Positions 26,871 to 40,819 of a stretch of DNA of 44,466 bases are shown piece after piece. The stretch comes from Patescibacteria group bacterium (GTDB lineage Bacteria; Patescibacteriota; Minisyncoccia; Phycocordibacterales; PALSA-1337): NCBI GenBank assembly GCA_018970245.1, contig JAGWWT010000010.1, positions 1 to 44,466 on the forward strand, given 5' to 3'. The notes under the pieces are model-generated. The model searched no databases and was not told the DNA's origin. It saw only the letters and a list, made by a program, of their open reading frames with translations. Each line of letters begins with the position of its first letter. The first letter of the stretch is position 1. The position numbers and the translations under genes are program-made.

Positions 26871-27272
26871 CAGCTGTACCAGACGACCGCTCCGATGGCG
26901 TCGCAAGGCGCCGCATCGGAGAGGAAAGTCCGAACACCAGCCTTCTAGGCAATCGTGCGATCGCGCTTGGAAGGCAGCACGTAGCGGGTAACGCCCGCCA
27001 GGGTAACTCCCAGAGGTGCGAACAGTGACGCTTGCGAGCGAAAGCGAGCAAGCGCCCCGAACTGCCGCAAGGCAGCATCGGGGCGAGCTCTTGCAGAGAT
27101 GCGAGAGGTGCAACGGCAAAATCCTTACGTTGGTGCAAGATCGTGTCCCGATATGGGCTCGCGCCCATTCGGGAAGAATCGCTCGAGGTCGGCCGTAAGG
27201 CTGATCCTAGATATATGGTCGTCGCTCCCGGTGAAAGCCGGGAAGACAGAATTCGGCTTACGGTACGGCAAC
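26871..27272 (+). ncRNA. rnpB: RNase P RNA
   Basis: This is the catalytic RNA of tRNA 5' processing, about 400 nt. P1 is formed by GCTGTACC (26873-26880) and GGTACGGC (27262-27269). The conserved GAGGAAAGTCCGAACACC block starts at 26919. The 3' conserved part has GATATATGGTCGTC and GACAGAATTCGGCTTACGG just before P1 closes. The ends are set from P1 and the predicted start site, so they are approximate. A terminator follows at 27279-27306. Protein-like frames across this region on either strand are spurious. Confidence 0.93.
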
Positions 27273-27278
27273 ATGGAG

Positions 27279-36029: not shown

Positions 36030-37307
36030 ATGCCTCTGGGGCACCAATTCTCTGTCATCGCCGTCCATCTTCAGGCGATCCTCATCCACGGCGGATATGG
36101 CGTCTTATTCTTGATTACGATGCTCGAAGGCGTACCGGTGCTCGGCATGGCCGTTCCCGGGCATGTCGCGATCATTGCCGCCGGATTCCTGGCCAGGATC
36201 GGCGATATGGATCTCGGTGTGGTCATCCTCCTATCGATCGCCGGCGCGATCTCGGGCGATTTCATCGGGTTCATGCTCGGCCGCAGGTATGGATTGTCCT
36301 TCATAGACAAGATCAGGCCGTATTTCTTCGTGACTGACGCCCACATCGAGCGCGCCAATGCCTTGCTTTCGAAGCACACAGGCAAAGCATTGATCATCGG
36401 ACGGTTCACTCCGGCCACGAGGGCCCTCATGCCATTCCTGGTCGGTTCGTCTGATATACCGGCTGGCCGGTTCTGGATCTTCAATATCATCGGCGGGACG
36501 AGCTGGGCGGTCATCTCCATCCTCGTCGGTTACGCTTTTGGAGCGGGATACCATATCGCTGCGGCATATTTCGGCCGCCTGATAGTGCTGGCCGTCATTT
36601 TGGCCATCGCCATCATCTGGGGGTATAGGTTCGTGAACGCCAACTACCACATATTCAAGAGATACGAGCTCTTCACTCTCCTCATCAATCTCGCTGCTCT
36701 CTTCTTCCTTGCCTTGACGATACAAGACGCATTCGCACTGAAGCCATTCATGGCCCAGTTCGATATCGCTGTGAATCTGTTCTCGGCCGCGCATGTCGGC
36801 CCGGCCTTGGCGCGGATAGGGGAGGCTGTGAGCGCGATCGGCGGCCCAGCCGTGACGGGCGGGATCGGAGCGGCCTTCGGCTTGTGGCTCGCGTTCAGGA
36901 AGAAATGGCGGTCTTCGGCCATCGCTCTGCTCTCGATAGCGTCTACCGGAGCGGCTGTCGGAGTGCTCAAGGAATTCTTCATGCGCGCCAGGCCTTTGGA
37001 CCATCTGGTACCCATCGCTCGGGGCGATTGGAGCTTCCCATCCGGCCATTCGGCGCTGTCGGCGGCCTTCTTCGTGATGATAGCCTATCTTTTGGCCCCA
37101 AAGATCCGTTCATGGGCCAGGCGCGAATGGTTCATAGTCTTGTGCGTTCTAGCGACCGCCATGATCGGCCTCTCTAGGCTGGTCCTCAATGTCCATTGGG
37201 CTTCAGATGTCATAGCTGGCTGGTCGCTCGGCGCCTTCTGCGCCACATCGGCCATACTTTTCGTCCGCTATGTAGGCAACCTGCTCGTGAGGAAGACGAT
37301 CAGATGA
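36030..37307 (+). CDS. DedA-family membrane protein fused to a PAP2 phosphatase
   Basis: The 425-residue polytopic protein has two parts. Residues 1-200 are DedA/SNARE-associated (EGVPVLGMAVPGHVAIIAAG, GDFIGFMLGRRYG, GRFTPATRALMPFLVGSSDI), a family of undecaprenyl-phosphate flippases. Residues 205-420 are PAP2 with KEFFMRARP, PSGHS (His340) and SRLVLNVHWASD, all three catalytic motifs intact. The fusion would join dephosphorylation of undecaprenyl pyrophosphate with return of the carrier to the inner leaflet, a direct partner to the lipid II flippase. An extended -10, TGATATACT (36013-36021), ends 8 nt before the ATG. The stop overlaps the convergent gpmI stop by 8 bp. Confidence 0.9.
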   Translation: MPLGHQFSVIAVHLQAILIHGGYGVLFLITMLEGVPVLGMAVPGHVAIIAAGFLARIGDMDLGVVILLSIAGAISGDFIGFMLGRRYGLSFIDKIRPYFFVTDAHIERANALLSKHTGKALIIGRFTPATRALMPFLVGSSDIPAGRFWIFNIIGGTSWAVISILVGYAFGAGYHIAAAYFGRLIVLAVILAIAIIWGYRFVNANYHIFKRYELFTLLINLAALFFLALTIQDAFALKPFMAQFDIAVNLFSAAHVGPALARIGEAVSAIGGPAVTGGIGAAFGLWLAFRKKWRSSAIALLSIASTGAAVGVLKEFFMRARPLDHLVPIARGDWSFPSGHSALSAAFFVMIAYLLAPKIRSWARREWFIVLCVLATAMIGLSRLVLNVHWASDVIAGWSLGAFCATSAILFVRYVGNLLVRKTIR

Positions 37308-38805
37308 GAGGCTTGCCGGTCATCTCTGCCGGAACCTTCAATCCGAGGAGAGCCAGGATGGTAGGCGCGACATCATAGAGGGCGCCGTCGCGGAGCCGCT
37401 TGGAGCTGTCAGTGACGATGCATGGGACGAGGCTAGTGGTGTGGGCCGTGTGCTTCGCGCCGGTATCAGGGTCGATGTTGATCTCGGCATTGCCGTGGTC
37501 GGCTATGATGAGCGCCGTGCCGCCGGCCTTTTCGAGGCTCTCGATCACGCGCTTCAGCTCCGAATCGACGGTCTCGATGGCCTTGATTATCGCGGGGACA
37601 TTAGCTGTATGCCCGACCATGTCTGGATTGGCGAAGTTTATGAAGATGAAGCCTGTGCCTTTGGAGATCTCTTCGACTGCTTTGTCGGCGATAGCCTCGG
37701 CGCGCATCTCCGGCGCCTCGTCGTGGGTCTTTATGTCCTTGCGGCTGTCCAGAAGCACGTGCTCTTCCAGAGCCATCTTGCCGTCTCGGCCGCAGTTCAG
37801 GAAATATGTGGCGTGCGCGAATTTTTCGGTCTCGGCTATGCGGGCCTGAGATATGCCCGCCTTGGATATCTCGCCGCCTAAGGTGATGGCGAAGCGCTGC
37901 GCCGGAAAAGCCACAGGCGCTCCCAGGCCGGGCTTGTGCTCGGTCATGGTGGCGAACCTCAGGCCATGCGATGTTGCTCGCGCCATCATGCGTTCGGAGA
38001 GCATCCTAGCCCTGTCAGCCCTGAAATTGAAGAAGAAGACGGCATCGCCATCGGCGACCGGGCTCGGCCGGCAGACTATAGGCTTCATGAGCTCGTCGCG
38101 CTCGCCGCTCTTGTACCGCTCAGAAATGCATTCAGAAGGCTTCGCAGAGCAAGTCGGCCCCTTTCCTTCGAGTATCGCTTTCTCGGCTTCGGCCAGCCTG
38201 TCCCAGTTGTTGTCGCGGTCCATGGCGTAGTATCGGCCCGCCACTGTGGCGATGAAGCATCCCGGATATCCTTCGATCTCTGATTCCAATCCGCGTATAA
38301 AAGATGCGGCGCTTTGGGGCGGCGTATCGCGCCCGTCGAGGAAGACATGGACGGCGACGCGTTCGACGCCTCTCTTCTCGGCAAGTCGAAGGAAGGCGAA
38401 GAGATGGTTCTGGTGACTGTGGACTCCTCCAGGAGACACCAATCCCATGACATGCAGAGTCGAACGGCGCTTTTCCACGTGCGCGAAGAGATCGGCGAAC
38501 ACCGGATTGCCGTCGAAATCGCCGGAAGATATCGCTTTGTCGATCCTGACGAGGTCGGTGTCGGCCGGCCTGCCTGCTCCTATGGTCATGTGCCCGACTT
38601 CGCTGTTGCCCATCTGGCCTTCGGGAAGGCCGACTGCGCTCCCTGAAGCCTTGAGCAGGGAATGGGGGCGCTCTTTCCATAGGCGATCGAAGAACGGCTT
38701 CTTGGCCGCGGCGATGGCGTTGTCTTTAGGGTCTTCGCGGTAGCCCCAGCCATCGAGGACGATGAGCATCACGGTCTTTTTATCTTTCGCAGGATGATTT
38801 TTCAT
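37300..38805 (-). CDS. gpmI: 2,3-bisphosphoglycerate-independent phosphoglycerate mutase
   Basis: The 501-residue alkaline-phosphatase-superfamily enzyme interconverts 3- and 2-phosphoglycerate in glycolysis. Metal and catalytic residues are visible: Asp18 in VLDGWG, Ser68 in MGNSEVGH, VHSHQNHLFAF, DGRDTPP, FNFRADRARM, ADHGNAE and GAKHTAHT. One oddity is FLNCGRDGK where FFNGG is usual. The start is ATG 38805. A second ATG 17 nt upstream comes from a tandem duplication and opens only a six-codon frame. Eno lies nearby on the same strand, so lower glycolysis is grouped here. Confidence 0.94.
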   Translation of the reverse strand: MKNHPAKDKKTVMLIVLDGWGYREDPKDNAIAAAKKPFFDRLWKERPHSLLKASGSAVGLPEGQMGNSEVGHMTIGAGRPADTDLVRIDKAISSGDFDGNPVFADLFAHVEKRRSTLHVMGLVSPGGVHSHQNHLFAFLRLAEKRGVERVAVHVFLDGRDTPPQSAASFIRGLESEIEGYPGCFIATVAGRYYAMDRDNNWDRLAEAEKAILEGKGPTCSAKPSECISERYKSGERDELMKPIVCRPSPVADGDAVFFFNFRADRARMLSERMMARATSHGLRFATMTEHKPGLGAPVAFPAQRFAITLGGEISKAGISQARIAETEKFAHATYFLNCGRDGKMALEEHVLLDSRKDIKTHDEAPEMRAEAIADKAVEEISKGTGFIFINFANPDMVGHTANVPAIIKAIETVDSELKRVIESLEKAGGTALIIADHGNAEINIDPDTGAKHTAHTTSLVPCIVTDSSKRLRDGALYDVAPTILALLGLKVPAEMTGKPLI

Positions 38806-38836: not shown

Positions 38837-39026
38837 GCAGAAGCGTGCGTGTGTCGCTATTTTTTTACTAATTACACCACGGCAGGGAAGTGCGCATCTT
38901 AGCCATAATTTGATACGGCAGTTTGACTGACAGTCAACTCGATGCAGGAATCGGCAATCAACTGGATAAGAGTCTCGGCGCTCGTCATACTTGTCATGCG
39001 GGAGCTAACCCACCCGCCGAAAAACC

Positions 39027-39104
39027 ATGGCAAAGGCCAAGAAGCCGCAGGAGCCCCAGGCTCCACAGCCGCAAACGCCTCCACAGGCGCCTCCGGCGGC
39101 ATAG
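39027..39104 (+). CDS. Putative 25-residue Pro/Gln-rich peptide
   Basis: ATG 39027 opens MAKAKKPQEPQAPQPQ followed by a Pro/Ala-rich end and TAG at 39102, 10 bp before a strong terminator. A basic head and PQ-rich tail are seen, with no hydrophobic part. There is no good ribosome site. A GCGGG/CCCGC hairpin (38998-39002, 39013-39017) lies just upstream. The terminator argues for a transcript here, but it may be a non-coding RNA instead. Longer frames in the other two registers look accidental. Confidence 0.35.
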   Translation: MAKAKKPQEPQAPQPQTPPQAPPAA

Positions 39105-39113
39105 GTTACTCAA

Positions 39114-39246: not shown

Positions 39247-39276
39247 GCAAAAAGACCCCCAACGGGGTCTTTTTGC
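39247..39276. terminator. Bidirectional terminator
   Basis: GCAAAAAGACCCC and GGGGTCTTTTTGC form a 13-bp stem (39247-39259/39264-39276) with A- and T-tracts on both sides. On the minus strand it ends the candidate small RNA. Confidence 0.9.
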
Positions 39277-39398
39277 CATAATGGTCACTCGACAAGGAGA
39301 TAGTTACCGAAATGTTTAAGGCCTACCTTGAGCAGGACTATGCCTGCGTGATGAGGTGGCTAATGTTTGATTTAAGGAACCTCTCCTTCGGTTGACCT
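39247..39398 (-). ncRNA. Candidate structured small RNA with own promoter and terminator
   Basis: Minus-strand TTGACT (39434-39429), 18 bp, TATACT (39410-39405) predicts a start near 39398. A perfect terminator lies at 39276-39247, giving about 150 nt. In RNA order the arms nest: GGTCA (39395-39391) with TGACC (39286-39282), AAGGAGA (39388-39382 read on the minus strand) with TCTCCTT (39300-39294), and an apical hairpin GCAGG-CATAGT-CCTGC near 39350-39335. A long rod with a central open region and apical hairpin recalls 6S RNA, but I cannot show homology. No convincing protein frame exists on this strand. A 27-codon frame on the other strand (39312-39395) is probably its shadow. Confidence 0.55.
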
Positions 39399-39404
39399 GT
39401 GCAC

Positions 39405-39434
39405 AGTATAATTCGTCCGAACGCCAAAAGTCAA
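39405..39434 (-). promoter_or_regulatory. Promoter of the candidate small RNA
   Basis: TTGACT-18-TATACT on the minus strand. It is one of few full -35/-10 pairs in the window. The other clear ones serve rnpB, the YdcF-like gene and the AAA-CYTH gene. The hexamer overlaps TATAAT on the opposite strand (39407-39412), so it may also fire toward eno. Confidence 0.6.

Positions 39435-39499: not shown

Positions 39500-40819
<1,320 letters not shown>

Follow-up and report, generated by a model that had tools for sequence, protein, structure and literature searches.

A conserved small RNA gene downstream of eno in a Patescibacteria genus, probably specifying a shortened second 6S-like RNA

We report that an RNA gene downstream of eno, the gene for enolase, in a Patescibacteria genome is real, evolutionarily conserved and previously unlisted. 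Its product, hereafter the eno-linked RNA, is about 150 nt long including the terminator and starts about 100 nt 3′ of eno on the same strand, within the window (the whole 44,466-nt stretch of DNA that was analysed). We consider it probable that this is a second RNA of the 6S type, shortened and divergent, a likely paralogue of a 6S RNA encoded beside ndk in the same genome, and that it occupies RNA polymerase. Bacteria use 6S RNA to tie up RNA polymerase, and the genomes of Patescibacteria are very small. Were one genus to retain two 6S-like RNAs at a genome size of ~0.5–1.4 Mb, this would suggest that RNA-based global control of transcription matters there. In the open-licence literature we found no report of 6S RNA in Patescibacteria or the candidate phyla radiation, and none of the eno-linked RNA.

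The initial annotation had claimed an unannotated structured RNA gene on the minus strand, with a TTGACT-18-TATACT promoter, nested complementary arms and a perfect bidirectional terminator, the whole having the outline of a rod with a central bubble and an apical hairpin. All of these elements were recovered (Table 1). Both promoter boxes are present, the GGTCA/TGACC, GGAGA and GCAGG/CCTGC helices all form in a fold of the outline described, and the A-tract and T-tract symmetry of the terminator makes it bidirectional in form. The predicted 5′ end of the RNA is likely A39398, 6 nt past the −10 box. Taken singly, the promoter and the fold are each weak evidence: a promoter scan of the region returned 5 sites against 4.8 expected, and the rod minus the terminator had a fold z of −2.5, with 5 of 200 shuffles equally stable. 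The elements exceed chance because they are conserved in relatives; conservation, covariation, promoter, terminator and synteny agree on an RNA gene.

Table 1 Elements and neighbours of the eno-linked RNA gene (window positions)
Feature	Position	Strand	Basis or remark
−35 box TTGACT	39429..39434	−	Sequence and promoter scan
−10 box TATACT, 18-nt spacer	39405..39410	−	Ends 6 nt ahead of the RNA
Structured RNA body, 123 nt, begins AGGUC	39276..39398	−	R1 match
P1 (closing stem), 5′ strand GGTCA	39393..39397	−	Fold and helix 1 covariation
P1, 3′ strand TGACC	39283..39287	−	Fold and helix 1 covariation
P2, 5′ strand GGAGAGGTT	39378..39386	−	Fold and helix 2 covariation
P2, 3′ strand AACTATCTCC	39296..39305	−	Fold and helix 2 covariation
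Central bubble, 5′ strand CCTTAAATCAAACATTA	39361..39377	−	Candidate template border for a product RNA
Central bubble, 3′ strand	39306..39320	−	Fold
P3, 5′ strand GCCACCT (family consensus GGGTCC)	39354..39360	−	Fold and covariation
P3, 3′ strand AGGT-A-GGC, conserved bulged A (family consensus GGAC-A-CC)	39321..39328	−	Fold and covariation
P4, apical hairpin GCAGG...CCTGC	39332..39347	−	Fold and helix 4 covariation
Intrinsic terminator hairpin, 13 bp, symmetric	39247..39276	−	Sequence; hairpin likewise in 24/24 homologues
eno (enolase), conserved upstream neighbour	39500..40786	−	Upstream in 19/24 homologous loci
gpmI (phosphoglycerate mutase), frequent downstream neighbour	37300..38805	−	10/24 loci

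The initial annotation had proposed comparing eno-downstream regions of relatives and scanning Rfam. We retained 80 eno loci of relatives and examined the eno-downstream stretch for 23 of these; the layout was kept in eight (L013, L014, L017, L021, L022, L024, L027 and L034). R1, a covariance model from these eight loci plus L006 (nine relatives, the window left out), matched the window at 39398–39276 (−) with 61.6 bits (E 2.5e-12), and at E 1 the eno-linked RNA was its sole match in the 44 kb. Among the 197 genomes searched as relatives, the host's own counted, 23 were R1-positive, and the 23 sequences found in them were used to build a second model, R2. R2 detected homologues in 24 of the 53 genomes of the host's family, namely in the host itself, in 22 of 33 other members of its genus and in 1 of the 19 remaining family genomes; within the genus, own genome included, 23 of 34 carry the eno-linked RNA. 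Across the class, under stricter filters, R2 was positive in 2 of 383 genomes, both in the host's genus. Each carrier genome has a single copy of the RNA gene, which usually adjoins eno. No known Rfam family was matched by the eno-linked RNA, only terminator-driven or chance matches being returned at gathering and relaxed thresholds, and a DNA similarity search of relatives gave short terminator-like matches and fragments only. At one locus (L026, 3785–3880), the tail GTGTGACCATTATG and a terminator directly follow eno and the rest of the RNA is missing, as if the gene had been deleted and its tail had remained. The same window also contains the rnpB gene that the initial annotation had named: RNase P RNA (RF00010) lies at 26871–27275 (+), and its 99.3 bits fall just short of the gathering score, 100, so that default annotation overlooked it.

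Transcription signals accompany the RNA in its relatives. TTGAC occurs upstream of 21 of the 24 homologues, compared with 5% of 7320 random 55-mers, the distance from the end of the −10 box to the RNA start is 4–7 nt, and a terminator-like hairpin follows the RNA in every homologue. In 19 loci the RNA is preceded by eno on the same strand, and in the other five eno was not found in the stretch as fetched; gpmI falls inside the fetched stretch in 10. The best explanation is that the eno-linked RNA is a stand-alone gene. Nearby in the window, 38988–39105 (+) holds a short Pro/Ala-rich ORF of 25 aa (MAKAKKPQEPQ...), preceded by a conserved GCGGGAGCTAACCCACCCGC hairpin-like leader and followed by a terminator-like hairpin; a similar leader and ORF occur near eno or the RNA at six other distinct loci (L003, L017, L018, L020, L103 and L115).

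The proposed structure is borne out by covariation. In A3, an alignment of 23 sequences fitted to the model (L135 and L136 absent), 91.8% of cells were paired and 17 of 23 pairs had changes on both sides; the covariation score was 0.439, compared with 0.174 for shuffled alignments and at most 0.103 when the structure was slid. A2, a MAFFT alignment of nine sequences, was not fitted to the structure, yet the structure had been drawn on it; here the score was 0.295 against 0.179 shuffled, with 8 of 23 pairs altered on both sides. In A3, both-side changes were seen in 7 of 9 pairs of helix 2 (P2) and in all 4 pairs of helix 4 (P4). All four helices covary and together give a 6S-type rod with a closing stem, a large central bubble and an apical arm, and the bubble is open in most predicted folds of the homologues. 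The window copy departs from the family in P3, where GGGUCC/GGACACC is swapped for GCCACCU/AGGUAGGC with the bulged A retained. The GGCCTTAAAC that the initial annotation had quoted from the 3′ side is thus no family-wide motif; it covers the 3′ strand of P3, whose pairs are swapped relative to GGACACC.

Across 286 genomes of the phylum, RF00013 gave 6S RNA matches in 19, all outside the host's class; 3 exceeded the cut-off. R3, a core model from 17 of these 19 sequences (the partial matches L131 and L134 excluded), gave a match in 45 of the 53 family genomes at E 1 and in 162 of 383 genomes of the class at E 0.001. The family loci examined (L137–L177) have the standard 6S layout with a 3′-bubble hairpin and lie away from eno. 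A hairpin of this kind has been reported for B. subtilis 6S-1 and for lactic acid bacteria. When the ORFs of 31 standard-layout loci were clustered, 26 grouped together as ndk and 27 as MBL-fold genes, both groups named by eye from the sequences; eno and gpmI are absent from all 31. Rfam's 6S model misses or under-detects the 6S RNA of the host's lineage: it is blind in the family (0 of 53 genomes, own genome included), where the core model finds ndk-adjacent standard-layout copies in most genomes.

In the host genome, the standard-layout copy lies at G000:C58, ~2224–2037 minus (L167), flanked by ndk and the MBL-fold gene. R3 scores it at 16.8 bits (E 0.16) with a long insertion present, and we assign it to 6S by its layout and synteny. 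Some ndk-linked 6S RNAs (L158, L167, L170 and L175) have additional long hairpins inserted 5′ in the apical arm. Both RNAs are found in 17 of the 24 eno-type carriers (G000, G002, G004, G005, G008, G009, G012, G013, G016, G017, G018, G021, G028, G029, G031, G032 and G043); of the remaining carriers, six have no R3 match and in G033 the R3 match is the eno-type RNA itself. We therefore rejected the eno-linked RNA as the genome's only 6S RNA, given the standard-layout copy at another locus. The likeness to 6S that the initial annotation had noted holds at the level of the family, not as the sole 6S-like RNA of the genome; with a standard-layout 6S elsewhere, the eno-linked RNA looks like a shortened second version.

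The relationship of the two RNA types was addressed by crossing the models. When R3 was run with filters off on the 70 kb of the 24 eno-type loci, the eight best matches all fell on the eno-type RNA in register, with E-values of 1.6e-4 (L136), 4.8e-4 (L100), 0.027 (L099), 0.036 (L097), 0.15 (L101), 0.29 (L103), 0.59 (L104) and 0.79 (L110). Weaker in-register matches were obtained at L106, L111 and L093; of the 22 matches listed, the remaining 11 were off-site or partial. For the motif that joins the apical-arm base to the start of the 3′ bubble (GGG-A-NNCC / GGNN-A-CCCACCU), 11 of 24 loci had an in-register R3 match at E ≤10, two of them below 0.001. The window copy (L108), whose P3 pairs are swapped, had no R3 match in this search. 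In the other direction, R2 was run on 30 standard-layout loci (89 kb), where the three best matches, and four of the five best, were in-register matches to the 6S RNA (E 0.069–1.8); on 19 6S loci of other classes, an in-register match was absent. Because the loci are related, the R3 and R2 cross-matches are not independent.

A profile–profile alignment of the eno-type RNA with 6S, from which columns with ≥50% gaps were left out, spans AGGTT to the closing CC and scores 29.5. In three sets of shuffles that preserved the layout, 4 of 600, 15 of 2000 and 13 of 2000 reached this score (p ~0.007), and the reversed profile scores 20.9. Sequence-only HMMs (nhmmer) comparing eno-type and 6S RNA were not significant in either direction, and RF00013 gave no match at E 10 on L100 or on L136. 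L136, from G033, is positive with both R2 (29.3 bits) and R3, and has an apical GCACCGUGGUGC and a predicted 3′-bubble hairpin; it adjoins a PAP2-type gene that also occurs at eno-type loci. It combines features of both RNA types and is intermediate between them. The 3′-bubble hairpin was not predicted in nearly all other eno-type members and forms no conserved helix among them, and most members are one base pair short at the apical base. From the 5′-end, bubble-border and apical-base motifs, which are in register and give moderate support, we judge the eno-linked RNA likely to be homologous to 6S.

According to the account in PMC8876501, 6S RNA is rod-shaped, and its central bubble imitates an open promoter; polymerase transcribes product RNAs from this bubble and is then released. 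A 78-nt version reduced to the bubble with short arms also goes through this cycle in vitro, at lower affinity. Product RNAs are marked, according to PMC8414754, by an upstream adenine together with GG at position 4/5 or 5/6. In 23 of 24 homologues, CC[TC]TAA stands where P2 meets the bubble. If the product began with a purine, its GG would be at 3/4; a U start would be needed to bring it to 4/5 or 5/6. The eno-type CC[UC]UAA is near, not exactly at, the product-RNA rule. Constrained folding with simulated product-RNA binding revealed no conserved rearrangement or alternative helix. On balance, the eno-linked RNA probably has a polymerase-binding function: its bubble would mimic an open promoter, the RNA would occupy the housekeeping form of RNA polymerase, and release would occur when the polymerase copies a short product RNA off the 5′ bubble strand. 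The −35 of the ndk-linked copy reads TTGC in many loci (by eye); the separate TTGACT promoter of the eno-linked RNA suggests an expression programme unlike that of the ndk-linked 6S.

Could the rod have arisen by convergence? The RNA would then belong to a genus-specific structured class with another role, for example base-pairing regulation of eno or gpm, or protein sequestration. The failure of sequence-only comparison to reach significance, the lack of any RF00013 match, the presence of a standard-layout 6S in the genome and the tie to a glycolytic neighbourhood would all fit such a class, but the in-register cross-matches of structure models, the whole-length profile similarity and the intermediate L136 argue against it, and we regard it as unlikely. 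It is also doubtful, somewhat more so, that the eno-linked RNA is a distinct polymerase-binding class, split from 6S in one Patescibacteria genus and having its own polymerase-form target and promoter; if this were true, transcription in a minimal genome would be under two RNA brakes of separate kinds, one of them encoded among clustered glycolytic genes.

A 6S-like fold might instead bind another form of the polymerase, such as the core enzyme. Two 6S-like RNAs coexist in the host, and Ms1 of Actinobacteria, as described in PMC9130861, is related to 6S in structure and binds core polymerase. The eno-linked RNA was compared with Ms1 through the Rfam scans, and we give this reading little credence. 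Least probable is that the RNA has no gene of its own and is processed from the eno mRNA, as its 3′ untranslated region or terminator leader. The position of the RNA ~100 nt 3′ of eno on the same strand, with eno upstream in most loci, is what such an origin would give; the promoters ahead of the RNA disfavour it, a consensus promoter standing at a fixed distance in 21 of 24 loci, and so do the covariation of the whole rod and the five loci in which eno was not found as fetched. We thus retain the reading of a shortened, divergent second 6S-like RNA.

With 6S RNA (SsrS, RF00013), the ndk-linked copy included, the eno-linked RNA shares the rod, closing stem, central bubble and apical arm. Common to both are also the 5′ AGGUY, the closing ACC, a bubble border of the CCYUAA type, and an own promoter and terminator; in the loci where R3 matches in register, GG(A)GUCC / GGAC-A-CC-ACC at the foot of the apical arm would be shared as well. 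Unlike 6S, the RNA is linked to eno and not to ndk, is RF00013-negative, has a 3′-bubble hairpin predicted only in L136, and measures ~123 nt before the terminator, whereas 6S measures roughly 140–200. In Actinobacteria, the synteny of Ms1 involves a HAD hydrolase. Ms1 has a 6S-related fold and was traced to new genera by synteny, not by sequence, as set out in PMC9130861; by description, it differs from the eno-linked RNA in phylum and in neighbours, here eno and gpmI. Set likewise by description against 6S-2 RNA (bsrB) of B. subtilis, the known instance of a second 6S paralogue, the eno-linked RNA is shorter and has diverged further from its companion; 6S-2, in the account of PMC8876501, shares its genome with a standard 6S RNA, as here.
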